A DNA stretch of 35,538 bases, taken from contig NZ_FTNC01000024.1 in the NCBI RefSeq assembly GCF_900156285.1, forward strand, positions 1 to 35,538, given 5' to 3'. Origin of the DNA: Halanaerobium kushneri (GTDB lineage: Bacteria; Bacillota; Halanaerobiia; Halanaerobiales; Halanaerobiaceae). The position numbers and the translations under genes are program-made. The notes under the pieces were generated by a model. That model saw only the letters and a list, made by a program, of their open reading frames with translations, searched no databases and had not been told where the DNA came from. This document shows positions 19,156 to 35,465 of this stretch, in pieces (position 1 is the stretch's first letter; each line of letters starts with the position of its first letter).

Positions 19156-20411
19156 ATGCACCCTGATTATAGTAATGCTCCTCAAAATCAAATTTTATGT
19201 ATTGATATGAAATCTTTTTATGCCAGTATAGAGCTTGTGAAAAGAAATATTCATCCTTTAAAAGGTTATCTGGCAGTAATAGGGAATAAAAAGCAGCAGG
19301 GTTCAGTAGTTCTAGCTGCTTCTGCTGCACTGAAAAAAAATATGGAATTAAAACTGCAGATCGTTTATTTCAAATTCCGGATAGAGAAGAGATAATTTTG
19401 GCTGAAGCTAATATGAAACTTTATCTTGATATTTCAATGAAAATAACTGAGATTTTTAATTCTTATCTTCCTCTGGAAGCAATTCATATTTATTCAATAG
19501 ATGAGGCCTGGCTAAAATTAAATGGAAGTAGGCTTAAATATGGTGATCCCCTAATGTTGGCTGAAAAAATAAGAAAAGAAATTTGGAGTAAGTATGGCTT
19601 ACCATGTAGTATGGGTATTGGTCCTAATATGTTTATGGCTAAAGTAGCGATGGACAATGAGGGAAAAGAAATTGGACTCTGCCATTGGGATTATAGTGAT
19701 ATTCCAGAAAAGTTATGGCCGCTAAAACTTTCAGATTGTTGGGGTATTGGCAGTAAAACTGAAAAAAAATTAAATAAAATTGGGGTTTATAGAGTAGGAG
19801 AACTGGCTCATCTCCCTTTAGAATATCTTGAAAAAAATTTTGGTATTTTAGGTAATCAGCTTTATTATCATGCCTGGGGAATTGATTATTCGGAAGTAGA
19901 AGGACATTTTGATGATCAAAAAAAAGCAGTTGGTCGTGGGATTACTCTTTATAGAGATTATAATATCTTAGAGGAGATTAAAACTGTAGTTTTTAATCTG
20001 GCAGAAGAAATTAGTAAAAGAGTTCGCCAGAATAACCTAAAAGGTAAAACTGTTTCCTTATCTTTGAGATATTCAAAATGTGAAGATAAAAAAGGATTTT
20101 CTAGACAGCTCACTCTGGAAAAGAGAACTGTTATGACAGATGATATTTATCAGGCAGCTGTAATAATTTTGAATAAACATTATCAGGGAGAAAAGGTGCG
20201 AAAAATAAGTCTTTATCTGACTAAATTTACAGAAAATGATTATCAGCAGTTAAATTTATTTGAAAATAATTTAAAAAAAGTCAAAATCAATCAACTTAGA
20301 GATCAGCTGGCCTGCAAAATGGGGAAAGATGTTTTATATTACGCTCGTAATCTAGAAAAAGGAAATATTAAAGCAAGAATAGAAAATACCATTGGTGGAC
20401 ATCATAAATAG
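19156..20411 (+). pseudogene. uvrX: UvrX-like Y-family DNA polymerase, one-base frameshift
   Basis: The two frames 19156-19395 and its continuation to 20411 make one Y-family translesion polymerase of about 418 residues. It starts NQILCIDMKSFYASIELV (metal-binding D), QGSVVLAAS follows, and IYSIDEAWLKLNG carries the catalytic D-E pair. Helix-hairpin-helix text LSDCWGIGSKTEKKLNKIG and a little-finger domain complete it. This is the UvrX/YqjW branch, the usual partner of YolD. The frame breaks in a run of eight A at 19333-19340: adding one A restores AAA-TAT-GGA-ATT-AAA and then TADRLFQIPDREE. The break could be a real mutation, a sequencing error or a slippage site. The start follows TTAGGAGG. 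LexA-like boxes lie upstream. Confidence 0.88.
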
Positions 20412-20983: not shown

Positions 20984-21943
20984 ATGAAAATTTTAGTTAC
21001 AGGTGGAGCCGGTTTTATTGGCAGTAATTTTATTCGTTATCAGCTTAAAAATTATGATGATCAAATTATTAATGTTGATAAGTTAAGCTATGCAGGTAAT
21101 TTGGATAATCTAAAAGATGTAGAAAATAATTCTAATTATCAATTTAGACAGTTGGATATCTGTGATCAAGAAAAAATAGATCATTTGATGCATCAGGGAA
21201 TAGATTATATAGTTAATTTTGCTGCTGAATCCCATGTTGACAGGAGTATAGATGATCCTTCTGTATTTGTTAAAACAAATGTTGAAGGTACACAGAGTTT
21301 ACTTGATCTGGCTCTAAAATTTGGAGTTAAAAAATTTGTTCAGATATCTACGGATGAAGTTTATGGCAGCCTTGGCAGTGAAGGAAAGTTTAAGGAAGAT
21401 AGTCCGCTAAACCCTTCCAGTCCTTATTCTGCTTCTAAAGCAGCTGCTGATCTTCTGGTTAAAGCATATGCAAAAACTTATCAACTGCCAGTTAATATTA
21501 CCAGATCATCCAATAATTTTGGTCCTTATCAGTATCCTGAAAAGCTAATACCTCTTTTTATTATCAATGCTTTAAATAATAGGAAGCTGCCTCTATATGG
21601 TGATGGAAGTAATATTCGAGACTGGATTTATGTTAAAGACCACTGTCGAGCGGTTGATCTGGTAATGCGGCGGGGAGAAAATGGTCAGACATATAATATT
21701 GGTGCCAGTAACGAAAAAAGCAATCTGGAAATCACAAAAAAAATTCTCGAATTATTGTCGAAATCAGAGTTGTTAATTAAACATGTAGAAGATCGTAAAG
21801 GACATGATTATCGCTATGCAGTTGATAGCAGTAAAATAAAGGACCAACTGGGATGGGAAGCTGAATATGACTATGATAGAGCTATGCAGATAACTTTAAA
21901 TTGGTATCTTGATCATAAAGATTGGTGGAAAAAATTACTTTAG
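20984..21943 (+). CDS. rfbB: dTDP-glucose 4,6-dehydratase
   Basis: The 319-residue product is an extended short-chain dehydrogenase of the RmlB type. It converts dTDP-glucose to dTDP-4-keto-6-deoxyglucose with bound NAD+. The NAD motif GGAGFIG is at residues 7-13. FAAESHVDRSIDDPS, then STDEVYGSLG with the catalytic acid pair D-E, and SPYSASKAA with Y148 and K152 are specific to this family, as is RSSNNFGPYQYPEKLIPLFI. It acts in the cytoplasm. No rmlA, rmlC or rmlD gene is near, so this copy is probably not for rhamnose. The WecE-like aminotransferase two genes on uses exactly its product. It follows a GGAAGGGAG site. Confidence 0.94.
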   Translation: MKILVTGGAGFIGSNFIRYQLKNYDDQIINVDKLSYAGNLDNLKDVENNSNYQFRQLDICDQEKIDHLMHQGIDYIVNFAAESHVDRSIDDPSVFVKTNVEGTQSLLDLALKFGVKKFVQISTDEVYGSLGSEGKFKEDSPLNPSSPYSASKAAADLLVKAYAKTYQLPVNITRSSNNFGPYQYPEKLIPLFIINALNNRKLPLYGDGSNIRDWIYVKDHCRAVDLVMRRGENGQTYNIGASNEKSNLEITKKILELLSKSELLIKHVEDRKGHDYRYAVDSSKIKDQLGWEAEYDYDRAMQITLNWYLDHKDWWKKLL

Positions 21944-21985
21944 AATTTAAATTTCACTTTAAATATTTGCTTTCATGATTAACTC

Positions 21986-22014
21986 TTGTTATTTCTTTCG
22001 ATTGATAATATAAT
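21986..22014 (+). promoter_or_regulatory. Promoter of the lysR-led operon
   Basis: TTGTTA (21986-21991) and TATAAT (22009-22014) are 17 bases apart, 70 bases before the LysR start, and would drive LysR and the genes behind it. Confidence 0.6.
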
Positions 22015-22083
22015 TAATTAAGAACATTAGTTTAAAACAATATTTTATAAATTATATTTTACAGTCAGTGAGAGGGTGTAGTT

Positions 22084-22974
22084 ATGCATATAGAAAGTCT
22101 AAAATATTTTCAAGAGATCGCAGAATTAAAAAGTATATCTAAAGTTGCAAATAATTCTCATATATCTCAACCTGCTTTAAGTCAGCAGATTCAGAAACTT
22201 GAGGACTCACTGGGAAAAGAACTTTTTATTCGTAGCAATAGAGGAGTTAAATTGACAGAAGCTGGTGAGGTTGTATTGAAATATGCTGATAATATAATTA
22301 GAACTTATAATAAAATGCTTTCTGATCTAAATGAACAGGATAGTCAGGAAATTAAGATTGAGGGAGAATACACCATTGCTACTTACTGTCTCCCCTGTGC
22401 AATATTAAATATGCAGTTTAAGTTTCCAAATCACAAATATAATCTGGTAGCTGCTGCTTCTGATAAAATTGAGCAGGATGTTTTGAGTGATATTTGTGAA
22501 ATTGGTTTTACAACTCATCCGGCTCAGGCGGAAAATTTACATTCAAAAGAGGTAATTAATGAAAAAGTAGTGCTCATTTCACCACCGGCTTTTGATCTAC
22601 CAGAAAAGGTGGAACTGGAAGAAATTTTAGATCATAAATTTGTGATTTTAAAAGAAGATTGCATAATAAAAGAAAATTTTAAAGAAGCACTGGCAGATTT
22701 AGGATATAATTTTTCTGAAATAGAAATTATTTCGCGCCTTGATTCTACAGAGGCAATAAAAACTTTGGTTCGAAAAGGATATGGAGTTGCTTTTGTACCC
22801 TACAATGCAGTTCGAGATGAATTTAGTGCTAAAGAAATAAATGTTTCCCGAATAATCGATTATGAGCTTGATTATGATATTTATATGATTAATAAAAAAG
22901 CGGAATTTTTATCTGCTGATGTAAAGAATTTCATTGCCAATTTTAAAAAACTGGGGAAACACATCTGTTATTAA
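22084..22974 (+). CDS. LysR-family transcriptional regulator
   Basis: The 296-residue product has the N-terminal winged helix of LysR proteins: LKYFQEIAELKSISKVA, SHISQPALSQQIQKLED, LGKELFIRSNRGVKLTEAG. A linker helix and a substrate-binding domain (about 88-290) follow, containing GYGVAFVPYNAV, a typical segment near the ligand pocket. Start ATG 22084 follows GAGAGGGTG. It points the same way as the sugar and transporter genes, 39 bases before the next start, so it is probably the first gene of that operon. LysR proteins usually activate neighbours in response to a small molecule; the substrate of the importer in the same operon is an obvious candidate ligand, but nothing in the sequence identifies it. 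Confidence 0.92.
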   Translation: MHIESLKYFQEIAELKSISKVANNSHISQPALSQQIQKLEDSLGKELFIRSNRGVKLTEAGEVVLKYADNIIRTYNKMLSDLNEQDSQEIKIEGEYTIATYCLPCAILNMQFKFPNHKYNLVAAASDKIEQDVLSDICEIGFTTHPAQAENLHSKEVINEKVVLISPPAFDLPEKVELEEILDHKFVILKEDCIIKENFKEALADLGYNFSEIEIISRLDSTEAIKTLVRKGYGVAFVPYNAVRDEFSAKEINVSRIIDYELDYDIYMINKKAEFLSADVKNFIANFKKLGKHICY

Positions 22975-23013
22975 ACAAAAGATTTAGAAATTTAATCTGG
23001 AGCGGAGTAATAT

Positions 23014-24174
23014 ATGCGAAAAATAGCATTTAATAAAACTTATTTTAGTGGAAAAGAAAAAAAATATATAGCTGATGCACTTGCAAGAGATAGTATAAGT
23101 GGTGATGGATATTATACCGCTAGAGTAAGTGAGTTTCTGGCAGAAAAGTTTGCTTTAAATAAAGTTTTAATGACTACCTCTGCAACTCATGCACTGGAAA
23201 TGGCTGCACAACTAATAGGGTTAAAAGAAGGGGATGAGGTAATTATGCCTTCTTTTACTTTCAGTTCTACAGCAAATGCAGTTTTAAAAGAAGGAGCCAG
23301 GCCAGTTTTTGCAGAAATTAAATCTGATAGTTTTAATCTTGACCCTGCAGATTTTGAGGCGAAAATTACAGCTAATACAAAGGCTGTAATTCCAGTTCAT
23401 TATGCCGGTATTAGTTGTGAGATGGATCAGATTAGAAATATTGCAAGAAAAAACGGGATTTATGTTATCGAAGATGCCGCTCATGCAGTTAACAGTTTTT
23501 ATCGGGGGGAAGCAGCTGGCAGTATGGGTGATTTTGGCTGTTACAGCTTTCACGGTAGTAAAAATTTGGTCAGCGGTGAAGGAGGTGCCCTGGTTATTAA
23601 TTCCAGCCAGCCGGAATTGCTTCAAAAAGCAGAAATCATCAGAGAAAAAGGCACAAATCGCTCTCGCTTTCTGCGGGGAGAAATTGATAAATACAGCTGG
23701 GTAGGAGAGGGCTCAAGTTATCTGCCATCTGATATATTGATGGCTCTTTTATTTGCCCAAATTAAGGAGATGGAATATATTACTGCTCAGCGAAAAATAA
23801 TATTTGAATATTATAATCATAATTTAAAGAAATTTTTAGCTGAAGATTTTCTGGATCTTATACCAGAGGTGCCTGCTGCTAAAAAAAGTAATTATCATAT
23901 TTACTATCTGAAACTTAAAAATCAAAATTTGAGAGATTTGGTTTTAAAAGAGCTCAAAGCGCGAGGGATAGAAGCTACCTTTCATTTTCAGCCTCTGCAT
24001 TCATCACCGATGGGGAAAAAGCTTGGTTATCAAAAAGAAGATCTGCAGCTGACAAATCAAATTGCTTCCAGTCTGCTCCGCCTGCCAATCTATCCAGATC
24101 TTTCTCAGATAGAATTAGATTATATTATTAAAAGTTTGGAAGATATTTTCTCCAGTTTAGTCAGGCAGGTGTAG
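23014..24174 (+). CDS. wecE: WecE-like dTDP-4-amino-4,6-dideoxygalactose transaminase
   Basis: The 386-residue product is a PLP aminotransferase of the DegT/DnrJ/EryC1/StrS family. K183 in SFHGSKNLVSGEGGAL should bind PLP. The details match WecE (RffA) rather than ArnB: GDGYYTARVSEFLA, VIPVHYAGISCEMD, and especially AEIIREKGTNRSRFLRGE, then DKYSWVGEGSSYLPSD. WecE moves an amino group from glutamate to dTDP-4-keto-6-deoxyglucose, giving dTDP-Fuc4N. That ketosugar is made by the dehydratase at 20984. No WecD-type acetyltransferase or other enterobacterial common antigen gene follows. The gene sits 39 bases after LysR and 3 bases before the glycosyltransferase. The family is sure; product stereochemistry is inferred from similarity read by eye. 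Confidence 0.9.
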   Translation: MRKIAFNKTYFSGKEKKYIADALARDSISGDGYYTARVSEFLAEKFALNKVLMTTSATHALEMAAQLIGLKEGDEVIMPSFTFSSTANAVLKEGARPVFAEIKSDSFNLDPADFEAKITANTKAVIPVHYAGISCEMDQIRNIARKNGIYVIEDAAHAVNSFYRGEAAGSMGDFGCYSFHGSKNLVSGEGGALVINSSQPELLQKAEIIREKGTNRSRFLRGEIDKYSWVGEGSSYLPSDILMALLFAQIKEMEYITAQRKIIFEYYNHNLKKFLAEDFLDLIPEVPAAKKSNYHIYYLKLKNQNLRDLVLKELKARGIEATFHFQPLHSSPMGKKLGYQKEDLQLTNQIASSLLRLPIYPDLSQIELDYIIKSLEDIFSSLVRQV

Positions 24175-24177
24175 TCT

Positions 24178-24945
24178 ATGACTGATTTCGTTTCTATCGT
24201 TGTACCGGTCTATAATAGTCAAAATTCTCTGGGAGAACTCTACCAGGCTGTGAAAAAAGTTGCTGCTGCCAATAATTTTAGATTTGAATTAATATTGGTT
24301 GATGACAACAGCTCAGATCAGAGTTATCAAGAAATTATAAAGCTGAATCACCAGGACAGCAGAGTTAAGGGGATTCGTCTGCAAGAAAATTTTGGCCAGC
24401 AGAATGCAATTTTTTGTGGTTTCAATTATGCAGTTGGAGACTATATAATTACCATGGATGATGACCTACAGCATCAGCCTGCTGATATTGCTTCTCTGCT
24501 GCAGAAGATTAAAGAGGGTTATGATGTAGTATATGCAATTCCGAAAATGAGAGCACATAGTTTTTACAGAAGAATGGGCTCCAGACTGACCAACTGGCTC
24601 TTTAATCTGATCACCCCCAAAAAGGATGAGCTTAGAGTCAGCAGTTATAGAATAATTAGCAGAGAAATCCTGAGTAAAATTAAAGGCACTAAAAAATCTT
24701 TTATTTATCTTTCAGCGATTATCTTAAAAGAGAAGCCTGAGATTGCAAATATATATACTGATCAGAAACAGCGCAAATATGGTGAGTCAAACTATAACTT
24801 TTTAAAGTTATTAAAATTATTTTTAAAGCTCTTTATTTATTATGGGGAGCTTTCATTTTTAAAATATTTTCGTTCAGAAAAAGAACAGTATCTAATTAGA
24901 GAAAGTACTTTTAAAGAGGAAGTGGAATCAAGATGCGGCTATTAA
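24178..24945 (+). CDS. ArnC/DPM1-like family 2 glycosyltransferase lacking C-terminal membrane helices
   Basis: The 255-residue product has the GT2 fold: FVSIVVPVYNSQNSLGELY, ILVDDNSSDQSYQEI, NFGQQNAIFCGF and the metal-binding DDDLQHQPADI. These match enzymes such as ArnC, GtrB and dolichol-phosphate mannose synthase, which move a sugar from a nucleotide to polyprenyl phosphate. KYGESNYNFLKLLKLFL is the conserved segment before the membrane part. The usual ArnC (about 320 residues) then has two membrane helices; here the chain ends about 45 residues later in a charged tail. A short amphipathic stretch (LKLFLKLFIYYGELSFLKYF) may hold it to the membrane. It overlaps the ATP-grasp gene by 13 bases. 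The likely donor is dTDP-Fuc4N or a derivative. Confidence 0.86.
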   Translation: MTDFVSIVVPVYNSQNSLGELYQAVKKVAAANNFRFELILVDDNSSDQSYQEIIKLNHQDSRVKGIRLQENFGQQNAIFCGFNYAVGDYIITMDDDLQHQPADIASLLQKIKEGYDVVYAIPKMRAHSFYRRMGSRLTNWLFNLITPKKDELRVSSYRIISREILSKIKGTKKSFIYLSAIILKEKPEIANIYTDQKQRKYGESNYNFLKLLKLFLKLFIYYGELSFLKYFRSEKEQYLIRESTFKEEVESRCGY

Positions 24946-26177
24946 TTCTTGGTGGAGGCAGTGCCCAGCTAAGTTTAATTAAAAAGGCAAAGGAACTTGG
25001 ACATGAAGTTGTTGTCTCAGATTATTATCAGGATGCTCCCGGCAAAAAATTTGCCGATTTCAGTTCTGAAAGCAGTACTTTTGATTTTGAGGCCAATCTT
25101 AAAACAGCAAAAAAATTTGAAGTAGATGGTGTATTAACCGCTGGAACAGACCAGCCAGTTTATACTGCTGCCCGGGTGGCTGAAAACCTGAATTTAAAAC
25201 AGTACCTGTCAGCAGAGACAGCTGAGGCTGTAACCAACAAAAGGGTCATGAAAAAGAAATTTAAAAAAGCAGCAATTCCAACGGTTAAATATAAAATTTT
25301 AGCAGCTGATTTTTCAGTCAAAAGTTTGAATAACTTCAGGAGGCCTTTTGTTGTTAAACCCCTGGATAGTCAGGGACAGCGTGGGGTTTTTAAACTAGAT
25401 ACTGCTGCCCAAATTAGAGAAAAATTTAACGAAGTTCTTTCTTATTCCAGAGAAGATAAAATTTTAGTTGAAGAATATTATAAATCAGATGAAATAACAG
25501 TTAGTGGCTGGGTTTTAAATGGAGAAGCTAAGCTTTTAACTGTTACAGATCGGCTGAGATTTGAAGCAGGTATTCATATTGGAATCTGCTCTTCTCATCT
25601 TTTTCCTTCAAAGCATTTAAAAGATTATTTTTTTGAAATTCAAAATATAAGCAAAAAAATTGTGAGTGAATTTGAAATCAAAAATGGACCGCTCTATTTT
25701 CAATTTCTAATTGGAGAAGAGGGGCTGAAGGTTAACGAAATAGCCTGCAGAATAGGTGGGGCCTATGAGGGGGATTTCATGCCGGAACTAACAGGGGTTG
25801 ATATTTTAGAAATGATGGTCAGGCTGTCAGCCGGCCTGCCCTTGAAGCAGAAAACTCTGCAGAATTACTCACTTCAGAGCAATCACAAATATTTATCTTC
25901 TCAACTCTTCTTTGCTGGCCCTGGTAAAATTGAAGATATCACTGATGAATTTGAACTTCTGGATTTAGAAGGAGTTTTAAAAGCTGGCTTTAATTATCAG
26001 ATTGGAGACCGGATTCCGGATATAGAAAATGCAACAGCCAGAGCCGGATATTTTATTGTTCTTGCTGGTAATAGAGTAGAATTAGAAGAGCGGGTAACTG
26101 CTGTATATGATAAATTAAAAATTATTGATCAGAACGGAGAAAATCTTGTATACAGAGAAATTGGAGAAAATTTTTAA
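24933..26177 (+). CDS. ATP-grasp ligase of unknown substrate
   Basis: The 414-residue product has an N-terminal PurK/biotin-carboxylase-like domain (MRLLILGGGSAQLSLIKKA, DGVLTAGTDQPVYTAARVAE). An ATP-grasp domain follows: NKRVMKKKFKKAAIPTVKY, PFVVKPLDSQGQRGVF with the ATP-binding lysine, VEEYYKSDEITVSGWV, and VNEIACRIGG, which supplies the Mg-binding E/N and an R. Such enzymes activate a carboxylate as acyl phosphate and join it to an amine or thiol. The closest general class is the amino-acid-ligase-like ATP-grasp proteins. In this operon the obvious amine is the 4-amino group of the WecE product, or an imported compound. The start overlaps the glycosyltransferase by 13 bases. Substrates are not readable from sequence. 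Confidence 0.85.
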   Translation: MRLLILGGGSAQLSLIKKAKELGHEVVVSDYYQDAPGKKFADFSSESSTFDFEANLKTAKKFEVDGVLTAGTDQPVYTAARVAENLNLKQYLSAETAEAVTNKRVMKKKFKKAAIPTVKYKILAADFSVKSLNNFRRPFVVKPLDSQGQRGVFKLDTAAQIREKFNEVLSYSREDKILVEEYYKSDEITVSGWVLNGEAKLLTVTDRLRFEAGIHIGICSSHLFPSKHLKDYFFEIQNISKKIVSEFEIKNGPLYFQFLIGEEGLKVNEIACRIGGAYEGDFMPELTGVDILEMMVRLSAGLPLKQKTLQNYSLQSNHKYLSSQLFFAGPGKIEDITDEFELLDLEGVLKAGFNYQIGDRIPDIENATARAGYFIVLAGNRVELEERVTAVYDKLKIIDQNGENLVYREIGENF

Positions 26178-26196
26178 AGAAATCGGGAGTGTAAGT

Positions 26197-27204
26197 ATGA
26201 AAAAATATATAACTATTATTATAATTTTTCTTTCAGTTTTATTATTAATCAGCGGCTGTGTAAATAATGAAGAGGCTAGTCAGCAGAAAATTACTATTGC
26301 TGAGCAGTATGGACTGGCCTATGCCCCGGTCCAGTTAATCAAGGAACTTAATTTTTTGAAAGCTGCTGATCCTGATTTAGAGGTCGAATGGAAGCAGCTG
26401 AGCAATACTACTTCTATTAGAGAATCAATGCTGGCCGGAGAGGTTGATATAGCTTTTATGGCTATACCACCATTTTTAATTGCCAGAGATAAGGGAATGG
26501 GGTGGAAAATAATTTCCGGGCTTTCGGAGAGTCCTCTGGGTTTAATGACAAATAGGGAAGATATTAATAGTCTGGCTGATTTTAAAACTGATAGCAAAAT
26601 TGCACTTCCTCAGCCAGGAAGTATTCAGCATATTTTACTGTCGATGGCAGCTGAGCGTGAATTTGGAGAGGTGGATAGATTTGATGAACAGCTTTTAACA
26701 ATGAGCCATCCTGATGCGATGAACGCTCTGCTCGCTGGTAGAGAAGTAAGTGCTCATTTTGCTTCACCTCCCTATCTCTTTTTAGAAAGTAGAGAAGAGG
26801 GTATTAAAAAGATTTTAAGTGGCCGAGAAGCCTTTGGTGGTGATTTCACCTTTATTGTCGGTGTTAGCACTGAGCAGTTTTATGGAGAGCAGCCTCAAAA
26901 TTACTCCAATTTTTTGGAGGCTTTAGGAAAAGCAATAGAATTTATAGATCAGAAACCGGATGAGGCAGCTGAAATTCTGGCTGATAATTATAATCTTGAG
27001 CCGAGTGAAATGAGGGATTATTTAAGCTGGTCGGGGATGAAATTCACTTCTAAAATCAAGGGTCTGGATAAGTTTATTGATTTTATGGCTGCAGAATCCT
27101 ATTTAGAAAAGAATAGTTATCAGTATTCTGAGCTGGTTTTTGAAGAAAATTTAGCTGGAGAGAAAGCTATATCGGAGGAGGGAGCCTCCCAAAATGAAGA
27201 GTAA
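26197..27204 (+). CDS. NitT/TauT-type ABC transporter substrate-binding lipoprotein
   Basis: ATG 26197 follows GGGAG by 7 bases and gives a lipoprotein signal, LLLISGC with the lipidated C21. An upstream in-frame ATG at 26125 would bury this signal. The mature 315 residues form a SsuA/ThiY/TauA-like binding domain: QYGLAYAPVQLIKELNFL, the SIREsMLAGEVDIAFMAIPP region, LPQPGSIQHILL and LAGREVSAHFASPPY. The class binds sulfonates, nitrate, pyrimidine thiamine precursors and others, so the ligand is open. It is anchored outside the inner membrane. It follows the ATP-grasp gene by 19 bases and overlaps the permease by 11, so the transporter belongs to the sugar operon. Confidence 0.9.
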   Translation: MKKYITIIIIFLSVLLLISGCVNNEEASQQKITIAEQYGLAYAPVQLIKELNFLKAADPDLEVEWKQLSNTTSIRESMLAGEVDIAFMAIPPFLIARDKGMGWKIISGLSESPLGLMTNREDINSLADFKTDSKIALPQPGSIQHILLSMAAEREFGEVDRFDEQLLTMSHPDAMNALLAGREVSAHFASPPYLFLESREEGIKKILSGREAFGGDFTFIVGVSTEQFYGEQPQNYSNFLEALGKAIEFIDQKPDEAAEILADNYNLEPSEMRDYLSWSGMKFTSKIKGLDKFIDFMAAESYLEKNSYQYSELVFEENLAGEKAISEEGASQNEE

Positions 27205-27958
27205 ATATAAACAGAGATTTTTCTGGGGGATTTTGTTGGCTTTTATCTGGCAGTTGACTGCAGTTAGTGGTATTTTTTCTGAGCTAATTTTTCCCGGCCT
27301 TGATCAAATTTCAATTGTTTTATTTAAATCTCTGCAGGATGGAACTTTAATTAAACAGATAGCTTTTTCACTTTCAGTGATCGCTCAAGGACTATTTCTG
27401 GCTACTATTATGGCTTTGCTTTTTGCCCTGACAGCTTACTTTTCCAGTACTGCAGCTGGCCTGATCGATACTCTTACTGCTCTTGCTCATCCGCTGCCGG
27501 GGATTGCATTGATGCCCTTAATTTTGATCTGGTTTGGCTCTGGCAGAATGGCAATTTTAATTGTAATAATTCATTCAGTTTTATGGCCTCTAAGCTTAAA
27601 TTTGAGTACAGGTTTTAATTCTATTCCAGATATCTATACTCTGATTGCTAAAAATTATCGTTTAAATAAATTTGAATTTATGTATAAAATTTTGATACCT
27701 GCTTCTCTCCCTTATTTTATTTCCGGCCTAAAAATTGCCTGGGCCAGATCCTGGCGGGCTTTAATCAGTGCTGAAATGCTTTTTGGGGCAATTAATAGTC
27801 TGGGCGGACTTGGCTGGTATATTTTTCAGAGGCGTGTTTTCTTTGATTTACCCGGGGTCTTTGCTGGAATCATTGTAATTATTATGATTGGGATAGTAGT
27901 TGAAGATTTTATTTTTGCAAAGTTAGAAAATAAAACAGTTAAGAAATGGGGGGCTTAA
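27194..27958 (+). CDS. NitT/TauT-type ABC transporter permease
   Basis: The 254-residue integral membrane protein has about six membrane segments. The cytoplasmic EAA-like loop that contacts the ATPase is at about 150-195 (IAKNYRLNKFEFMYKILIPA, then SLPYFISGLKIAWARSW). This is the SsuC/TauC/ThiX-type permease family. The start overlaps the binding-protein gene by 11 bases; its ribosome site GGAGGAGGGAG lies within that gene and next to CTCCC, so a small hairpin could mask it until translation of the upstream gene opens it. It ends one base before the ATPase start. Confidence 0.92.
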   Translation: MKSKYKQRFFWGILLAFIWQLTAVSGIFSELIFPGLDQISIVLFKSLQDGTLIKQIAFSLSVIAQGLFLATIMALLFALTAYFSSTAAGLIDTLTALAHPLPGIALMPLILIWFGSGRMAILIVIIHSVLWPLSLNLSTGFNSIPDIYTLIAKNYRLNKFEFMYKILIPASLPYFISGLKIAWARSWRALISAEMLFGAINSLGGLGWYIFQRRVFFDLPGVFAGIIVIIMIGIVVEDFIFAKLENKTVKKWGA

Positions 27959-27959
27959 A

Positions 27960-28727
27960 ATGAGCTCCTATTTAGAACTAAAAAATATTAATAAGAGTTT
28001 TGAGACTGAAAAGGAAAAAAAGATTGTTTTAGCAGATATCAATTTAAAAATTAGAGAAAATGAATTTTTGACGATCTTAGGTCCTTCAGGCTGTGGTAAA
28101 TCAACTTTACTTAAAATAATTGCCGGCTTTAGCAAAACCGATGGGGGTAAACTTTTAAAAAAAGGAAAGGCCATCAAAGAAGCGGGCATGGATAGGTTAA
28201 TGCTTTTTCAGGATTTTGAGCAGCTTTTTCCCTGGCAAAAAGTAATAAATAATGTTGAGTTTGCCGTTAAGCAGGCAGCTAAAAATAAGAAATTGAAACT
28301 CAGCTCAGTTCAAATTAAAGAAAGGGCTTTGAAATATCTTAAGCAGGTTAAACTAAGAGACTATCAGAATTATTATCCCCACCAGCTTTCCGGGGGGATG
28401 AAGCAGAGAGTTGCACTTGCCAGAACTCTGGCAGCAGAAGCTGAAATCATGTTGATGGATGAGCCTTTCGGTAGTGTGGACAGTCAGACCCGTCAGGAGC
28501 TGCAACAGCTTTTAGTTCAGCTCTGGCAGGAAGAAAATAGAACTATTATTTTTGTGACCCATGATATCAGGGAGGCAGTTTTCCTTTCCCAAAGAATCGT
28601 TGTGATGAAAAATGAGCCGGGTCAAATAATTAATATTGTTGAAAATAAGCTACCTTATCTCCGTAAACGAAGCAGCAGAAATTTTAATCATCTATTTGAA
28701 GAACTCCAGTCTCAGCTGCATAGTTAA
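27960..28727 (+). CDS. NitT/TauT-type ABC transporter ATP-binding protein
   Basis: The 255-residue ATPase has Walker A GPSGCGKST (about residues 41-49), a Q-loop MLFQDFEQLFPWQKV, the signature LSGGMKQRVALART, Walker B EIMLMDEPFGS and the switch histidine in FVTHDIREAVFLS. It energises the importer formed with the two genes before it. It resembles the second transporter ATPase at 32574-33368 in length and family. The last 44 bases overlap the end of the minus-strand glycosyltransferase gene, and no terminator is seen in the overlap. Confidence 0.94.
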   Translation: MSSYLELKNINKSFETEKEKKIVLADINLKIRENEFLTILGPSGCGKSTLLKIIAGFSKTDGGKLLKKGKAIKEAGMDRLMLFQDFEQLFPWQKVINNVEFAVKQAAKNKKLKLSSVQIKERALKYLKQVKLRDYQNYYPHQLSGGMKQRVALARTLAAEAEIMLMDEPFGSVDSQTRQELQQLLVQLWQEENRTIIFVTHDIREAVFLSQRIVVMKNEPGQIINIVENKLPYLRKRSSRNFNHLFEELQSQLHS

Positions 28728-30306
28728 CCTTATAAATTTTAACTGACCAGTTTTTGGCTCCGGTTTTACTAACAATTCTCATTGGATAAGTAGAATTGGT
28801 GAATTCTTTAATTAGAACAGTTCTCTGAGCTATAAATTTCTGCATTTCTTCATAATAGGGATAGAGATTGCCGTAGAGAATATTCCAGCTAGGTCGGCTA
28901 TTATAGATATAGTCCATTTCTTCCGGGTAGATTATATATTTAATTTGATTTTTCTTTATATAATTAGCAAAGGAAAGATTATTTTCTTCGAGATAAGCCA
29001 GATTTCTATAATCAAAGAGACTCTCATTTTCAAAATAATAGTCAGTATTTAAATTTGCCAGTACCCTGCTATCCTGGGGAACTACCTCTGCAATTTGATT
29101 AAGATAGTCCTGGTAATTATAATGGCTGTCCTTAATTATGGTGAAGATGCTGTTCAGGCCTAAAAAGCTTATTAAAAGCAGGATCAAGATTTCCTTAAGT
29201 TTAAACTTAAAATTTATATTTTTAATCAGGTTAATAAATAAAAGATAGCCAAGTGGAAAAATAAAGATAATTGAAGTCTGATTGTATCTGCCAATGATTA
29301 AATAGCCCAGATTAATAGCTGTTAGACTTATAAATAAATATAAATTTAAATCATCTTTTTTAAGAAAAAGTTTGATTAGAGAAAGCAGAGCTGTAGCTGC
29401 AAAAAAGAGCAGCTGAAATTTAATTGGCGGAATATAATAGGTACCGCTTATCTGATAAAATAATTTTAGATAAAAATCCTTGAAGTTTTCTAATTTAAGC
29501 AGCATAGAATCAAACACCCCAAGCTGGGCTCCATAGCTGCTGTAATGGCTTATGAAATTGGGATCAAACTGAAAACTTAAATAAACAAAAAAGAAAGCTA
29601 TGATAGCCAGAGTGCTGCCAAAGCTGAGATAATTTTTGAATTTAGTTTCTCTACTAAAAATTAGCTTCCAGCTGTAAATCATAATTAAAGGCAGTGAAAT
29701 GATAAAAGCATTTGGATGAAAACCAATACTTGAGCCTAGAATAAGACCCAGGTAGATATCTTTTTTGATTGAATATTCTTTTTTAGAGGCGCCATAAATT
29801 TCTTGATTATATTCAATTTTTTTTAAATAGTAGTAAAAGGCAGCTAAAAATATTAAAACTAAAATAATTTCCTGCCGGGCTAAATGAGAACTATAAATAA
29901 AATGAATATCCAGGCTCAGAATAATTAAAGCCACCAGACTTAAATTTTTGGAGTCAGTGATTAAAATGGAAATCTTATAAAAGAAAAAAAGACTCAGACT
30001 GCCCGCCAGCAGTGAGATCAGACGAAAAGTGAAAATTTGGTAAGCCATAATTTTAATAAAGATAATTTGTAAAAAATGAAAGAGGATTTTAATTGTATGA
30101 GGACTTCGAGGCAGCAGATCAAAGAAAGCTTCAGTGGCAGCTGGATTATTTGTCTGCATTATCTGACGTGAAAGTCCACTTAACCAAGCCTCATCTGAAT
30201 GAATAAAGGGAAAATTATTTAGAAAGAATAAATTTATAATTAAATATATTAATATTAAATGCCAGCTTTTAATTTTATTTAAAATATTTTTTGGAAATGT
30301 ATTCAT
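28684..30306 (-). CDS. ArnT/PMT-like (GT39) membrane glycosyltransferase
   Basis: ATG at 30306 (minus) follows TTGGGAG by 7 bases and gives 540 residues; the frame extends 16 codons further without a ribosome site. The protein has one N-terminal helix (HLILIYLIINLFFLNNF), then the first outer loop with HSDEAWLSGLSRQI, whose D-E pair is the signature of GT39/GT83-type enzymes. About ten more membrane segments follow, and a soluble domain of about 130 residues forms the C-terminus (SRVLANLNTDYYFE, FANYIKKNQIKYIIYPEE). These enzymes take a sugar from polyprenyl phosphate and add it to lipid A, protein or glycan on the outer side. It is convergent with, and overlaps, the sugar/importer operon, which fits a role as its final transferase. 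The acceptor is unknown. Confidence 0.85.
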   Translation of the reverse strand: MNTFPKNILNKIKSWHLILIYLIINLFFLNNFPFIHSDEAWLSGLSRQIMQTNNPAATEAFFDLLPRSPHTIKILFHFLQIIFIKIMAYQIFTFRLISLLAGSLSLFFFYKISILITDSKNLSLVALIILSLDIHFIYSSHLARQEIILVLIFLAAFYYYLKKIEYNQEIYGASKKEYSIKKDIYLGLILGSSIGFHPNAFIISLPLIMIYSWKLIFSRETKFKNYLSFGSTLAIIAFFFVYLSFQFDPNFISHYSSYGAQLGVFDSMLLKLENFKDFYLKLFYQISGTYYIPPIKFQLLFFAATALLSLIKLFLKKDDLNLYLFISLTAINLGYLIIGRYNQTSIIFIFPLGYLLFINLIKNINFKFKLKEILILLLISFLGLNSIFTIIKDSHYNYQDYLNQIAEVVPQDSRVLANLNTDYYFENESLFDYRNLAYLEENNLSFANYIKKNQIKYIIYPEEMDYIYNSRPSWNILYGNLYPYYEEMQKFIAQRTVLIKEFTNSTYPMRIVSKTGAKNWSVKIYKVNYAAETGVLQIDD

Positions 30307-30509
30307 ATTAATGCTCCCAATTAAGATTTTTTGATTGTTATTATTATACCACAATCAATCTTTCAATTTAAAATATTCTCAGAAAAAGCTGTTTCATTTG
30401 ATAATTGAATATACTATTAGCAAATGTTATAACCATAAGTGCTTAATATGTCTTATAATATTAATAGAGATTGTTCCAATTTTAACAATATAAATTTGGA
30501 GGTGGAAAA

Positions 30510-31430
30510 ATGAAAAAAACAGCAAAGATATTATTTATTTTATTAGCTTTTGCGATTATTCTCACAGGCTGTGAAGCAGATATTTCTGTTCCCGGTGAAG
30601 TGGGTCAGGATATAATTACAGCAGATGAAGCCTTAAAGATGATTGAGAAAGAAGATGTAGTTGTAGTTGATACTCAAAAGTCTGGTGATTTTGAAGACCA
30701 GCACTTTGAAGGTGCAGTAAATATTGCCAGAAATGATATAACTACTTTTGGTCCTTATCCAAATATGCTGGCAGATGCTTCTAAAGTAGAATCTTCTTTA
30801 GGAGAGAATGGTATTTCCAATCAGACAAAGGTAATTATTTATGATAATAACAATAATATGGACGCAGCTCGCCTGTGGTGGACAATGCTGGTCTATGGTC
30901 ATGACACTGCTAATATGAAAGTAATTAGTGGAGGTTTAAATGCTTTAGAAGAAGCTGGAGCAGAATTTGTTTCTGGTGACTATGAGGCTGAAGCCGTAGA
31001 ATATAAAGCAGCTGAAAAGAATGAGGAGCTAATTGCTACTAAGGAAGAAATTCTTGAACAGGTTAATAATCCAGAAGATGATATTGTTATTTTAGATGTT
31101 AGAACAGCAGATGAGGTTAGTGAGGGTGTAATTCCTGGAGCTATTCATATTAATTATGTTGAAAATAATAAGGATAATGGAGAATTTTATCCACCAAGTT
31201 ATATTCAAAGATATTATCCAGATAATGATATAACACCAGATAAAGAGGTCATAATGTACTGTCAGACTTCAATTAGAGCTGCTCAGAGTTTTTTAGCACT
31301 ACATAATGCTGGTTATAGAGATCTCAAACTTTACGATGGTGCCTGGATAGAGTGGTCTTCAGATAGTTCTACTCCAAAAGGAATGCTCAGTGGAGCTCCT
31401 GCAGAGCCAAGCGCTCAGGATGGTTCTTAA
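30510..31430 (+). CDS. Two-domain rhodanese lipoprotein
   Basis: The 306-residue product has a lipobox LTGC with lipidated C21, so it is anchored outside the inner membrane. Two rhodanese domains follow. The first (about 35-155) keeps the fold (VVVDTQKSGDFEDQHFEGAVNI) but its active loop reads IIYDNNNNMDAARLWW with no cysteine. The second (about 170-295) has DVRTADEVSEGVIPGAIHI and the catalytic loop YCQTSIRAAQ with C251. This inactive-active order is that of classical thiosulfate:cyanide sulfurtransferases (SseA type). It should move a sulfane sulfur atom from thiosulfate or a similar donor to an acceptor. The start follows TTGGAGGTGG. A weak terminator lies at 31459-31488, before the next rhodanese gene. 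Confidence 0.92.
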   Translation: MKKTAKILFILLAFAIILTGCEADISVPGEVGQDIITADEALKMIEKEDVVVVDTQKSGDFEDQHFEGAVNIARNDITTFGPYPNMLADASKVESSLGENGISNQTKVIIYDNNNNMDAARLWWTMLVYGHDTANMKVISGGLNALEEAGAEFVSGDYEAEAVEYKAAEKNEELIATKEEILEQVNNPEDDIVILDVRTADEVSEGVIPGAIHINYVENNKDNGEFYPPSYIQRYYPDNDITPDKEVIMYCQTSIRAAQSFLALHNAGYRDLKLYDGAWIEWSSDSSTPKGMLSGAPAEPSAQDGS

Positions 31431-31458
31431 AAAATAGAAAGTTAAAAGTTAATAATAG

Positions 31459-31488: not shown

Positions 31489-31520
31489 TTTAATAAAGTT
31501 TGTGAAATATATTTTAATGT

Positions 31521-31536: not shown

Positions 31537-31579
31537 TTAGTTAGATTCATTTTTTACCAAAAAATTAGGAGGAATAAGA

Positions 31580-32479
31580 ATGAAAAGAAGAATTTTATTA
31601 TCAGTGGCAATAATTATGATGGCTTTAGTGGTAGTTTCTAGTTCAGCTTTTGCGGTATCAGATACAGTAGAAGATGCTGTAAATGGTTATTTTGCAAATC
31701 TTCCAGAAGATAATAGTATGATCGGAGAGAAAGCTTTTGTAGAGAAAGTTAAGTCTGGAGAAGATCTTTTTATTTTAGATATTAGACAGCCTGATGTTTA
31801 CAATGAAGGTCATGTTAAAGGTGCGGTAAATGTCCCCTGGGGACCTGAAGCAATTCCGGCTGCTCTAGATAAACTTCCTGGAGATGAAACTATTTATGTT
31901 TATTGTTATACTGCTCAGACTGCAAATCAGACAGTTGCTCTTTTAAACTTTGCTGGTTTTGATGCTAAGTCAGTTAGATTTGGCTGGAATTTAGGAATTA
32001 CTAAAGTTGATGGTTACCAGGATGCAGTAGAAACAAAAGCAAATGAACTGGCTGGAACAGCAGATTATGAAATAAATGCAGATATAGAAAAAGCAATTGT
32101 GGATTATTATGCTGGACTGGCAGATGTTAAAGATTCAATGTATAAAAACTATAAAATTTCTGAAGATATGTTAAAAATGGCTATTGATTCTGATGCAGAT
32201 ATGATGGTAGTTTCAATCAGACAGCCAGGTGCCTTTGCTGAAGGACATATTAAAGGTGCAGTTAATATTCCCTGGGGTGCTGGGATGGAACAGTATTTTG
32301 GACAGCTTCCACAGGATAAAAAATTAGTTGTTTACTGCTACACAGGTCAGACTGCAGGGCAGACAGTGGCTGGATTAAGAATGTTAGGTTATGATGCTGT
32401 ATCACTTAATGGTGGTATGGGTACTCCAGCTAATGAGCCTTATGGATGGTCAAATAAGGGTTATGAAGTAGTTCAGTAA
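31580..32479 (+). CDS. Exported tandem rhodanese with two active-site cysteines
   Basis: The 299-residue product has a cleavable signal peptide (residues about 1-25, ending SSAFA). It carries two rhodanese domains that are close copies of each other. Domain 1 (about 45-140) has ILDIRQPDVYNEGHVKGAVN, then VPWG and the loop YCYTAQTANQT with C109. Domain 2 (about 190-290) has VVSIRQPGAFAEGHIKGAVN, then IPWG and YCYTGQTAGQT with C253. Both keep the cysteine, unlike classical two-domain enzymes, so two persulfides could form. It is a free periplasmic protein, probably a sulfur carrier or thiosulfate-handling enzyme. The start follows TTAGGAGG. A strong two-way terminator follows at 32524-32555. 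Confidence 0.92.
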   Translation: MKRRILLSVAIIMMALVVVSSSAFAVSDTVEDAVNGYFANLPEDNSMIGEKAFVEKVKSGEDLFILDIRQPDVYNEGHVKGAVNVPWGPEAIPAALDKLPGDETIYVYCYTAQTANQTVALLNFAGFDAKSVRFGWNLGITKVDGYQDAVETKANELAGTADYEINADIEKAIVDYYAGLADVKDSMYKNYKISEDMLKMAIDSDADMMVVSIRQPGAFAEGHIKGAVNIPWGAGMEQYFGQLPQDKKLVVYCYTGQTAGQTVAGLRMLGYDAVSLNGGMGTPANEPYGWSNKGYEVVQ

Positions 32480-32573: not shown

Positions 32574-33368
32574 TCAATCAATTTGACTGTGAATAATATC
32601 CATAATTTCATTTTTAATTTTAAAATAATCATCATTATAAATTACTTCCTTAGTTCCTTTTGCCAATATCTGATTTGTAAAATCAAGATCAAAGATCTTT
32701 ATAATTTCTCCTGGCTGTTTGGACATTACAACGACTCTATTGGCTAGTAACAGGGCCTCATCTACATCATGGGTAATAAAAAAGATTGTGGTGTTGTTTT
32801 CTTCCCAGATATTACGGATTAAATTCTGCATATTTTCTCTGGTCAAAGCGTCTAAGGCTCCAAAGGGTTCATCCATTAGAACAACCTGAGGATAATTGGC
32901 CAGCACCCTGGCAATAGCTACCCTCTGTTTCATTCCTCCAGACAATTCAAAAGTGTAATTATCACCAAATCCACTTAAATTAACTTCATCTAAAAAATAT
33001 TCACGAATTTCTTTAATTTTAGCCTTTGGCAGATTTCGCATTTTAGGTCCAAATTCCACATTTTCATTAACTGTCATCCAGGGATAAAGGGTAGGAGATT
33101 GAAAAACAACCCCCCGATGCCAGTCAGGTTCATCAACTTCTTCTCCCTGCATTAAAACCTGGCCAGAACTTGGTTTTACATAGCCAGCAATGCATTTAAG
33201 TAGGGAACTCTTACCACAGCCGGAAGGGCCCAGAACACAGATGAACTCACCTTTATTAATTTCTAAGTTGATATTTTTAAGGGCAAGAGTAGAATTAATG
33301 CTTTCACCATATTCCAGGCTCATATTTTTAATTTTTATTAAGCTCTCTTTTTTTGCTTGAGCAGACAT
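32574..33368 (-). CDS. NitT/TauT-type ABC transporter ATP-binding protein
   Basis: The 264-residue ATPase has Walker A GPSGCGKSS, Q-loop VVFQSPTLYPWMTV, signature LSGGMKQRVAIARV, Walker B VVLMDEPFGALDALT and the switch histidine FFITHDVDEALLLA. It belongs to the SsuB/TauB/NrtD family of importer ATPases. It is the last gene of a three-gene minus-strand operon (permease, binding protein, ATPase), 62 bases after the binding-protein gene, with ribosome site AGGAAAGGA. A two-way terminator follows. Confidence 0.94.
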   Translation of the reverse strand: MSAQAKKESLIKIKNMSLEYGESINSTLALKNINLEINKGEFICVLGPSGCGKSSLLKCIAGYVKPSSGQVLMQGEEVDEPDWHRGVVFQSPTLYPWMTVNENVEFGPKMRNLPKAKIKEIREYFLDEVNLSGFGDNYTFELSGGMKQRVAIARVLANYPQVVLMDEPFGALDALTRENMQNLIRNIWEENNTTIFFITHDVDEALLLANRVVVMSKQPGEIIKIFDLDFTNQILAKGTKEVIYNDDYFKIKNEIMDIIHSQID

Positions 33369-33430
33369 AAAATATATCCTTTCCTGATTAGCTTCACTTT
33401 TAATTACTAAATTGGATTATCAATTTTAAA

Positions 33431-34516
33431 TTAATTATTTTCTTCATTTTCCAGTGACATTTTAATATATTCTGAATTAACATATTCATTGAATGCTTCC
33501 TGAGAAGGAGATTCTTCAATTGAACCCTGATTCTGCAAGAAGTCAGAAGTATCTTTCATTACAGTGGCAAAGTTTCCTGGCTGCTCCACTGAGCCAAAAA
33601 ACTCACCGCTTAAAAGTTCTTCTCTTGTTTTCCAGGTTGTACCTCGCATCTGGTGCAGAGCAACCTCAGCTTCTAGACCAAGTTCATTTCCAGCAATTTT
33701 TGCAGCTTTTTCTGGATCATTTCTATAAATATCTCCGGCTTTAGTTAATGCAGAAATAAAATCAGCAACCAATTCTGGATATTCTTCCGAAAATCTTTTG
33801 CGAACAACTTCAACATTGGCTGTGATATAACCTTTTTCAGCCATTTCTCTGCTGTCTGTTAAAGTTGTACCACTTTCTAAAAGCTGAGCCAGAGTCGGCT
33901 GCCAGGTATAAGCTGCCTGAACATCTCCTCGTTCCCAGGCAGCTACAATTTCGGCTGTCTGCATATCTAAAAGCTGAACATCTTTTTCAATACCTGCTTC
34001 TTTTAAAACATTTAACAGAATATAATGGGCAGTAGAAGCAAAGGGGACTGCGATTCTTTTTCCGACTAAATCTTCAATATCTTCAATTCCAGAGCCGTCT
34101 TTGACTGCTAAAGCTTCATTTTCACCCAGGACTTCATGGATCCAGACTAATTCAACATTGAGTTCGCGGGCCAGAGCAGTAATTGCATTGGTATTACCCA
34201 TGGTAGCGAAATCAATACTTCCAGAAGCAAGAGCCTGATTGGCTTCTACACCTGAGTCAAAAACTCTTGTATTAACTTCTATCCCCCGCGTAGTAAAATA
34301 TTCGTCAAAAAATCCTTCTGCCAGAGCGATAGTTTCATCATTTGGAACTCTCAAAACCCCCAAATTTATCTCTTTAGGTAATGATTCCTGGACAGCTGCA
34401 TTTTCTGTTTCTGAACTGCCATTTTTCGACTGTTCAGTACCACAGGCTGTTAAAGTTAATGCAAGTGCTGTTATTAGAAATAGTAAAATTAGTTTTTTAA
34501 AGAAAGTCTTTTTCAT
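33431..34516 (-). CDS. NitT/TauT-type ABC substrate-binding lipoprotein
   Basis: The 361-residue product has a lipobox LTAC with lipidated C25. The mature domain matches TauA/SsuA proteins: INLGVLRVPNDETIALAEGF, then ALASGSIDFATMGNTNAITA, VGKRIAVPFASTAHYILLN and AAWERGDVQAAYTWQPTLAQ, then LESGTTLTDSREMA. It binds taurine, sulfonates or related small acids at the outer face of the membrane. I favour a sulfur compound because two rhodanese genes lie next door, but no monooxygenase or desulfonating gene is present, so this is inference. The ribosome site TTGGAGG is well placed. Confidence 0.92.
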   Translation of the reverse strand: MKKTFFKKLILLFLITALALTLTACGTEQSKNGSSETENAAVQESLPKEINLGVLRVPNDETIALAEGFFDEYFTTRGIEVNTRVFDSGVEANQALASGSIDFATMGNTNAITALARELNVELVWIHEVLGENEALAVKDGSGIEDIEDLVGKRIAVPFASTAHYILLNVLKEAGIEKDVQLLDMQTAEIVAAWERGDVQAAYTWQPTLAQLLESGTTLTDSREMAEKGYITANVEVVRKRFSEEYPELVADFISALTKAGDIYRNDPEKAAKIAGNELGLEAEVALHQMRGTTWKTREELLSGEFFGSVEQPGNFATVMKDTSDFLQNQGSIEESPSQEAFNEYVNSEYIKMSLENEENN

Positions 34517-34601
34517 TTTTTTACCTCCAAATTTATAATAGCTGTCATTTTATATATACATTAATTTAAATCTAAAAACTTAGAATTTTAGTTAAGCATT
34601 A

Positions 34602-35465
34602 TTAGACATGACCTTTCCAGAAAATAATCTTTCTTTCCAGGAATCTTAATCCTGCATCAATTATGACACCTGTGATTCCCATAACTATTATACCAACAAA
34701 GATTACATCACTTTTCAAAAAATTAGATGCATCTAAAACCATCCAGCCAATACCAGAAGTCGCAGCAACCATTTCGGAAGAAACGAGAGTAGTGTAGGCA
34801 ACTCCAAAAGCTGTTCTAATTCCAGTAAAAATTTCAGGCAGAGAAGCAGGCAGCACAATTTTGAAAAAAACATCTTTTTGAGCTGCTCCCAGTGATCTGG
34901 CACTTAATACAAAATCCTGATTCAACTTTCTAACTGCAGAAACACAGGCAATGTAAATCGGTGCAAAAGCAGCTAAGAATAAGAGAATCTGCTTAGAAGT
35001 ATCATCTATTCCAAACCAGAGTACCAAGAGAGTATAATAGGCAAGTGGTGGCAGTGGTCGATAAAACTCAACTACGGAATCAATCACTGCTTCTACTTTA
35101 TCAAAATAACCGCTTAAAAGCCCGAGTGGAACCGCACTAAATATTGCAAAGAATAATGCAACAAATAAGCGTTTAAAACTGGCACCTAAATGAAGCCAGA
35201 GAGGCACTCCATTATAACCCTCATCTAAAATTCTTAAAAAAGCTCTCCAGACTCTAAGTGGACCGGGCAGTAATGTTGGGGTGAAAATTTCAAGTTTGGT
35301 AATAATATACCAGACAAGAAAAATAGCAGCCCAGGTCAAAATTGTTAGTGCTTTTTCAGTTTTAGTTTTTTTGTTTTTAGCTGTTTCTCTATTTATATTC
35401 TGACTTGAAGTATTATCAGTAGAGTTTTGAGCCTGATTTCTCCTTTTTTTATTATTTAAAGCCAT
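34602..35465 (-). CDS. NitT/TauT-type ABC transporter permease
   Basis: The 287-residue product has a hydrophilic, asparagine/lysine-rich N-terminus of about 38 residues, then about six membrane segments. The EAA-like loop is at about 185-225 (SARSLGAAQKDVFFKIVLPA, then SLPEIFTGIRTAFGVAYT). It is the SsuC/TauC-type permease and the first gene of the minus-strand transporter operon; the binding-protein gene follows after 85 bases. The start codon at 35465 follows AAGGACG. The sequence beyond it (35466-35538) is too short to place a promoter with confidence. Confidence 0.92.
   Translation of the reverse strand: MALNNKKRRNQAQNSTDNTSSQNINRETAKNKKTKTEKALTILTWAAIFLVWYIITKLEIFTPTLLPGPLRVWRAFLRILDEGYNGVPLWLHLGASFKRLFVALFFAIFSAVPLGLLSGYFDKVEAVIDSVVEFYRPLPPLAYYTLLVLWFGIDDTSKQILLFLAAFAPIYIACVSAVRKLNQDFVLSARSLGAAQKDVFFKIVLPASLPEIFTGIRTAFGVAYTTLVSSEMVAATSGIGWMVLDASNFLKSDVIFVGIIVMGITGVIIDAGLRFLERKIIFWKGHV

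Follow-up and report, generated by a model that had tools for sequence, protein, structure and literature searches.

A conserved gene unit of Halanaerobium kushneri with a predicted lipid-linked N-acyl amino-sugar pathway and adjoining rhodanese genes

A 35,538-nucleotide stretch of Halanaerobium kushneri DNA (contig NZ_FTNC01000024.1; hereafter the window) carries, from position 20984, a block of genes predicted to make an amino sugar, modify it, load it onto a lipid and pass it on, and the question that this locus raises is what the sugar becomes and on which acceptor it ends. A first-pass annotation had listed nine genes, from RfbB to a convergent membrane glycosyltransferase of the GT-C type, and reading frames and family scans recovered all nine at their positions (Table 1). 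It missed that the block runs past the GT-C gene into two rhodanese genes, Rhod1 and Rhod2, and then a TauA/TauC-like importer, and with them it missed the unit's main association, which is with exported rhodaneses and sulfur-trafficking genes. Our best explanation, to which we give an even chance, is that the unit serves sulfur metabolism outside the cytoplasm, as a transmembrane glycosylation system whose product is an N-acylated 4-amino-4,6-dideoxy sugar. That the genes encode a lipid-linked N-acyl 4-amino sugar pathway we consider probable, and a tie of its function to sulfur metabolism is fairly likely; that the acceptor is itself a sulfur-handling protein is a tentative proposal.

Conservation of the core

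With the window's ATP-grasp ligase as query, orthologues were found in 18 of the 41 nearest genomes (E < 1e-140, 54-100% identity), the best match beyond these 18 being at 8e-49; genome sets and counts, here and below, for the order, the phylum, the importers and the rhodaneses were tallied by hand. The GT2 gene adjoins the ligase gene in all 18 of these genomes of the order, and the WecE, GT2 and ATP-grasp genes are consecutive in 17, the contig of the other (G015) beginning inside GT2. Given that 17 of 18 genomes agree, the order is not due to chance. The convergent GT-C gene was also seen in 17 of 18, the contig of G014 ending after the ligase.

A profile of the 18 ligases, run over 299 genomes of the phylum, matched 26 of them at E <= 1e-20. 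Eleven core genomes lie outside the class, in families f22, f26, f53, f64 and f87, with matches at E < 1e-95 and lower identity, and in six of these 11 the WecE, GT2 and ligase genes are again consecutive. The gene order that the first-pass annotation had wished to see sought elsewhere is therefore kept both in the order (17 of 18 genomes) and in these six, and the core of WecE, GT2 and ATP-grasp with a likely GT-C gene is present in 29 genomes from ten families.

In a tree of ATP-grasp proteins, 27 of the 29 core ligases (those of loci L039 and L041 were left out) fell on one side of a branch from seven other ATP-grasp proteins; this branch had support of 80/91 and was present in 79% of bootstrap trees, so that a single origin of the core ligases is likely, if not firm. 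The homologues from L054 and L098-L102 were used only as outgroups. Four of these loci, L054, L098 (G082:C10), L099 and L102, were rejected as core units, as their ATP-grasp homologues, 29-31% identical, stand near a distant DegT with no GT2 or importer; the distant ATP-grasp and DegT pairs lie in apparent polysaccharide loci. Acylation of amino sugars by ATP-grasp enzymes may be common.

The predicted sugar pathway

On recount, the gap between LysR and WecE is 39 bases and that between WecE and GT2 is 3; GT2 and ATP-grasp overlap by 13, a gap of 19 separates ATP-grasp from the binding protein, the latter overlaps the permease by 11, and a single base lies between permease and ATPase. These values agree with the overlaps of 13 and 11 bases and gaps of 1-39 bases reported at first. 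The GT-C gene, on the minus strand, ends at 28684 and starts at 30306 (ATG) or 30354 (TTG), and its end overlaps that of the importer ATPase gene by 44 bases, tail to tail.

RfbB and WecE together would yield dTDP-4-amino-4,6-dideoxy-galactose (Fuc4N) or a close isomer, and the family scores support the dTDP-4-amino sugar route that had been proposed from these two genes. The window's WecE is slightly under the cut-off of TIGR02379 (425.8 vs 434.85 bits), and it aligns with the solved WecE 4piw, including the stretch IREKGTNRSxFxRGxxDKYxW; the presumed pyridoxal phosphate lysine, K183, is invariant in 28 of 28 WecE proteins, that of G015 having been excluded from the 29 core genomes. The WecE proteins of L087, L088 and L094 pass the NF008687 cut-off while that of L090 does not (349.2 vs 375 bits), and f87 may thus have a different sugar. 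An RmlA gene scoring above its cut-off lies elsewhere in the window's genome, and dTDP-glucose can therefore be made. The RfbB gene adjoins the core in some genomes only; at L087, L088 and L089 both RfbA-like and RfbB genes are within the unit, the RfbA-like protein of L088 reaching 227.7 bits with the RmlA model, below the cut-off of 360.65. The best NCBIfam model for the LysR gene is the selenium-associated LysR (190.2 vs 250 bits, below cut-off). Sixteen of the 18 genomes of the order carry this gene directly 5' of WecE, and in seven of the 11 core genomes outside the class it lies near the unit, none being seen at the four f22 loci.

The ATP-grasp protein is a predicted carboxylate-amine ligase of the L-amino acid ligase kind. 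Its profile matches 4dim and the L-amino acid ligase 4wd3, ATP-grasp catalytic residues and the LAL C-terminal domain are both present, and K142, Q147-G151, E180, E269, R273, G275 and G276 are invariant in 29 of 29 ligases. It would couple a carboxylic acid to the 4-amino group of the sugar, in place of the formylation carried out by ArnA.

GT2 would then load the acylated sugar onto polyprenyl phosphate. Its best NCBIfam model is that of ArnC (NF007986), at only 134.9 bits against a cut-off of 529, followed by PgfS at 107.4 against 500; the solved chains nearest to it are also of ArnC, and model and chains together support the original description of a putative ArnC-like lipid-phosphate transferase. 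A DDD motif is invariant in 29 of 29 GT2 proteins of core genomes. The window's GT2 is without C-terminal hydrophobic segments, of which the f26 versions have two. The GT2 alignment (A2) comprised 16 of the 18 sequences of the order, G008 and G015 being left out, and alignments A1, A3, A4 and A5 comprised 18, 18, 21 and 18 sequences. At L041:8677-14576 (G008) the GT2 and GT-C genes look split, through decay or an assembly error.

The lipid-linked sugar would next be turned over by a flippase, a role that in some genomes may fall to a pair of small EamA/SMR-type proteins. These are encoded between ligase and importer at L093, L094, L095 and L096, four of the five f22/f64 loci (the L093 pair was scanned, the second protein of L096 was recognized by eye, and the contig of L097 ends there), and the pair in these four distant core genomes resembles ArnE/ArnF of the Arn pathway.

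Final transfer, to an acceptor outside the membrane, would be the work of the GT-C enzyme. Its predicted model (pLDDT 85.3) matches the folds of oligosaccharyltransferases, ALG12 and ArnT (5f15), with E from 6e-7 to 1e-4, and also resembles ALG9; the presence of ArnT among these matches is consistent with the transfer step that had been assigned to it. D38-E39 is invariant among 18 aligned GT-C proteins. This model backs the predicted role solely for the GT39 type, found in the order, f53 and f87. A polytopic membrane protein sits between WecE and GT2 in all four f22 genomes, the copy at L094 scoring 21.4 bits with PMT_2, under the cut-off of 26.1; G097 has at this position a rhodanese gene together with a gene for the f22-type membrane protein. 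The f26 units end in a protein of 683 (L088) or 659 (L089) residues; the L088 copy matches no Pfam family and contains 13 hydrophobic segments.

Each protein of the first importer scores above a Pfam cut-off, and the NCBIfam models listed all fall below theirs (TIGR01728, for the binding protein, at 89.4 vs 163.5 bits), for which reason we name no substrate. The AlphaFold model of the binding protein (pLDDT 87.8) comes closest to structures of SsuA (in complex with MES or MOPS) and TauA, with thiamine-precursor and pyrroloquinoline quinone binders next, and this fold suggests that the cargo is a small anion, for example a sulfonate. This SsuA-like importer would supply the acid of the ligase or its precursor. 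Within the order its binding protein was found in 13 of 18 core genomes and in none of the 23 others (E <= 1e-15), and this restriction to core genomes suggests that the importer feeds the sugar pathway. Where it is absent, at L044, L046, L052 and L053, the GT-C gene comes directly after the ligase. Outside the class, binding protein and permease lie 3' of the ligase in nine of nine assessable genomes (in G051 and G169 the contig stops short of this position), with the ATPase gene in eight (not G082). The importer's place in the gene unit, as first described, is thus upheld outside the class and only in part within the order, where, with 13 of 18 carrying the binding protein, we rejected it as essential core. 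The second importer also scores below cut-off (TIGR01729, 216.2 vs 304.25 bits; PRK10160, 238.2 vs 342 bits); of the 18 genomes of the order, ten have all or part of it next to the block. At L042:1174-2343 a group II intron reverse transcriptase separates the rhodaneses from the second importer.

Table 1. Genes of the block, with window coordinates and the family matches behind each assignment
Gene product	Position	Strand	Family match
RfbB, dTDP-glucose 4,6-dehydratase	20984..21943	+	TIGR01181, 472.8 bits (cut-off 365.1)
LysR regulator, directly 5' of WecE	22084..22974	+	PF03466/PF00126
WecE-type dTDP-4-keto-6-deoxyglucose 4-aminotransferase	23014..24174	+	NF008687, 486.7 bits (cut-off 375)
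GT2, predicted polyprenyl-phosphate sugar transferase, ArnC/DPM-like	24178..24945	+	PF00535
Predicted ATP-grasp ligase with L-amino acid ligase C-terminal domain	24933..26177	+	ATP-grasp_4 and LAL_C2, above cut-off
Substrate-binding lipoprotein (signal by eye), SsuA/TauA-like	26197..27204	+	NMT1, 39 bits (cut-off 20.5)
ABC importer permease	27194..27958	+	PF00528
ABC importer ATPase	27960..28727	+	PF00005
GT-C (GT39-like) membrane glycosyltransferase	28684..30306	-	PMT PF02366, 26.5 bits (cut-off 22.7)
Rhod1, lipoprotein (signal by eye), two rhodanese domains	30510..31430	+	PF00581, two stretches
Rhod2, exported (signal by eye) double rhodanese, CYTxQTA loops	31580..32479	+	PF00581, two stretches
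Second importer, TauA/TauC-like: ATPase, binding protein, permease	32574..35465	-	TIGR01729, PRK10160, both below cut-off

Upstream of the block, at 19398-20411, is a 337-residue open reading frame, by eye like a Y-family DNA polymerase; its relatives at L037, L039, L040 and L041 have 418-435 residues, and it is possibly truncated.

Sulfur genes and the acceptor

Rhod1, whose best NCBIfam model is 3-mercaptopyruvate sulfurtransferase (92.6 vs 250 bits), occurs next to the unit or at a contig edge in 15 of the order's 18 genomes. Rhod2 (E <= 1e-20) was found in 18 of the 41 nearest genomes, exactly those with the ligase, six of the 23 that have neither being listed as less than 85% complete. 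The two genes switch together in genus g1 (eight genomes with, four without), family f6 (three, two) and family f7 (three, five). A Rhod2-type gene lies on the ligase contig within about 10 kb in 22 of the 29 core genomes; in G004, G014 and G249 it is on another contig, at or near the end beside Rhod1, with the GT-C gene there in two of them, and in the remaining four, all of f22, it is unlinked. A rhodanese gene adjoins the unit in families f26, f53, f64 and f87 as well.

Across the phylum the Rhod2 profile matched 36 of 299 genomes at E <= 1e-20, namely all 17 core genomes and 19 of the 282 others (Fisher p 4e-18), the matches being partly by construction given that alignment A5, with 16 sequences of the order and two from f26, contains the Rhod2 of eight of the 17. 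Core genomes outside the profile gave 9/9 against the same 19/282 (p 2e-10) and, minus f22, 5/5 (p 3e-6). At E <= 1e-100 the profile matched 12 of 17 core genomes, eight of the 12 being profile members, and none of the 282; a smaller check with 20 ligase-profile non-matches as controls gave 11/11 against 0/20. These co-occurrence figures ignore kinship, and joint loss or transfer through physical linkage could lie behind part of them.

Other sulfur genes also stand near the core. Transporters of the PF04143 family were scanned at L046 and L090, kin of these were found by blast at L045, L048, L053, L087, L091-L093 and L107, and further ones were recognized by eye at L049 and L052; a TusA-like protein was recognized by eye at L049, L052, L087 and L090-L093. 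A CoA-disulfide-reductase-like protein with a rhodanese domain adjoins the core at L044, a TrxB-Trx fusion does so at L090, and L088 has NrfD with an Fe-S protein. Near the unit in f22 and f64 are a NapC-type cytochrome and a split-Soret cytochrome c (scanned at L094, where at 13783-15233 the two are directly upstream of WecE; f22). Proteins with four rhodanese domains are encoded at L090:15597-17384 and L093:10992-13214, the latter with an added copper amine oxidase N-terminal domain.

The construction of the profile, the neglect of kinship and the effect of linkage weigh against our explanation, and so do several further observations. In f22, to which four of the 11 distant core genomes belong, no rhodanese was seen in the unit stretches, some of which are cut by contig ends; the rhodaneses of three f22 core genomes (G223 excluded) are unlinked and share only 34-37% identity with Rhod2, and the profile also matches f22 genomes that do not have the core (G247, G271 and G294). 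We did not uphold rhodanese linkage in this family, and its tie to sulfur accordingly rests on little beyond the redox cytochromes. In G154, which is without the sugar core, rhodanese, LysR and YeeE-TusA-YedE genes stand together (L110:8576-15326), so the sulfur module can stand alone. Five of 18 core genomes of the order are without the first importer. The search of the window's genome for PF04138, the GtrA flippase family, was empty, and GtrA was rejected as its flippase. No obvious Ser/Thr-rich linker is seen by eye in the Rhod2 alignment.

What the acceptor may be separates the alternatives. That the unit decorates lipid A, putting its sugar on lipopolysaccharide as ArnT does with L-Ara4N and altering envelope charge, would suit the ArnC-like GT2, the match of the GT-C model to ArnT and the EamA-type pair of distant relatives, and all but one of the 18 core genomes of the order have LpxC, the window's own among them. 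Against this, LpxC had no match in any of the 11 core genomes outside the class, each of which has a listed completeness of 97% or more, and lipid A cannot therefore be the general acceptor and was rejected as such; the aminotransferase is not ArnB (193.4 vs 631 bits), and the co-occurrence of the rhodaneses is left unexplained. We regard this alternative as unlikely, although lipid A could be an acceptor in Halanaerobium. Of the Arn-like decoration read from the window at first, the amino sugar, the ArnC-like GT2, the ArnT-like GT-C enzyme and the EamA pair of four distant genomes stand, and the lipid A target does not. The remaining general options are a protein or a wall polymer, and it is possible, if doubtful, that the unit is an ordinary multi-component system decorating a wall polymer or a polysaccharide of the surface, the sulfur genes adjoining it through one sulfur-responsive LysR while their products never meet. 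Known systems of this type modify teichoic acids and wall polysaccharides (PMC8035078), and both the lone sulfur module of G154 and the f22 units, in which no rhodanese was seen, favor such an arrangement; it does not sit well with Rhod2 and the core sharing the same 18 of 41 genomes across gains and losses in g1, f6 and f7, or with the rhodanese adjoining the unit anew in f26, f53, f64 and f87.

Sulfonate nutrition, with importers and rhodaneses scavenging sulfur and the sugar genes merely adapting the surface for uptake, draws on the closeness of the first binding-protein model to SsuA and TauA and on the TauA-like second importer. However, that binding protein was not found without the sugar core in the order (0/23), the importer genes follow the ligase by gaps or overlaps of a few bases, and no sulfonate-cleaving enzyme was found among the 14 genes of 20984-35465 (14 scanned with Pfam, 13 with NCBIfam), the window genes upstream of 20984 being unscanned. 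This we consider quite improbable.

In the glycosylation system that we favor, the acceptor would most likely come from the adjoining sulfur machinery, and an exported rhodanese is the first candidate because it is the exported protein most often seen beside the unit, the importer's binding protein aside. A more specific version is speculative and very unlikely to be correct: the acid, imported or cytosolic, would bear sulfur as a thiol or in another group, the ATP-grasp enzyme would convert it into an amide of the amino sugar, and the GT-C enzyme would set a glycan thiol arm on the rhodanese or another surface acceptor, where it would take up sulfane sulfur outside the membrane. If true, thiosulfate-reducing bacteria would have a sulfur carrier built on a sugar and delivered through the membrane.

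Comparison with known systems

In the Arn pathway the amine is formylated before lipid loading. The unit resembles that pathway in its 4-amino sugar, the logic of N-acylation, the ArnC-like GT2, the ArnE/F-like pair of some relatives and the fold match to ArnT; it differs in that Arn uses a UDP-pentose and a formyltransferase, whereas a dTDP-hexose and an ATP-grasp enzyme are predicted here. Neither the ArnB nor the ArnC equivalog score is reached, and neither an ArnA formyltransferase nor an ArnD deformylase was found among the scanned window genes, no genome-wide search having been made. The enterobacterial common antigen branch makes dTDP-Fuc4NAc via RfbB and WecE, followed by WecD and WecF. 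It has the first two enzymes in common with the window, and the absence of WecD and WecF claimed in the first-pass annotation extends to the whole genome of the window, in which neither model finds a match.

That annotation also knew of no described system with this gene set, and a literature search with little coverage of subscription journals found no published description, so that the set is apparently undescribed. The unit spans distant anaerobes, and in the order it behaves as an inherited package; it joins two fields unlinked in the searched literature, lipid-linked glycosylation and extracytoplasmic sulfur metabolism. Were the acceptor a rhodanese or other sulfur protein, sulfur chemistry would have a post-translational modification of its own; were it not, the unit would still point to a new acylated-sugar branch of transmembrane glycosylation. 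Halanaerobium makes sulfide in fractured shale wells, and the function is therefore also of practical interest; in the same genus three rhodaneses, which may or may not be those of the window, are more abundant with thiosulfate (PMC5497025). The main text of that paper nowhere mentions transporter, gene cluster, LysR or glycosyl.

The Pgf system of Streptococcus mutans, in which the GT2 PgfS acts with PgfM1, PgfE and PgfM2 to modify surface proteins, shares with the unit a related GT2, PgfS being the second-best NCBIfam model for the window's enzyme, and differs in that its published abstract names no aminotransferase, ligase or importer (PMC5856776). Closest in plan are the multi-component (three-component) transmembrane glycosylation systems such as CsbB-GtcA-YfhO and GtlA-GtcA-GtlB (PMC8035078). 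The window's unit would have in common with them a putative GT-A-type enzyme making a C55-P-sugar followed by a GT-C enzyme acting outside the membrane. The window's genome has no GtrA match, and the unit adds its own 4-amino sugar pathway, an ATP-grasp ligase, an ABC importer and linked rhodaneses.

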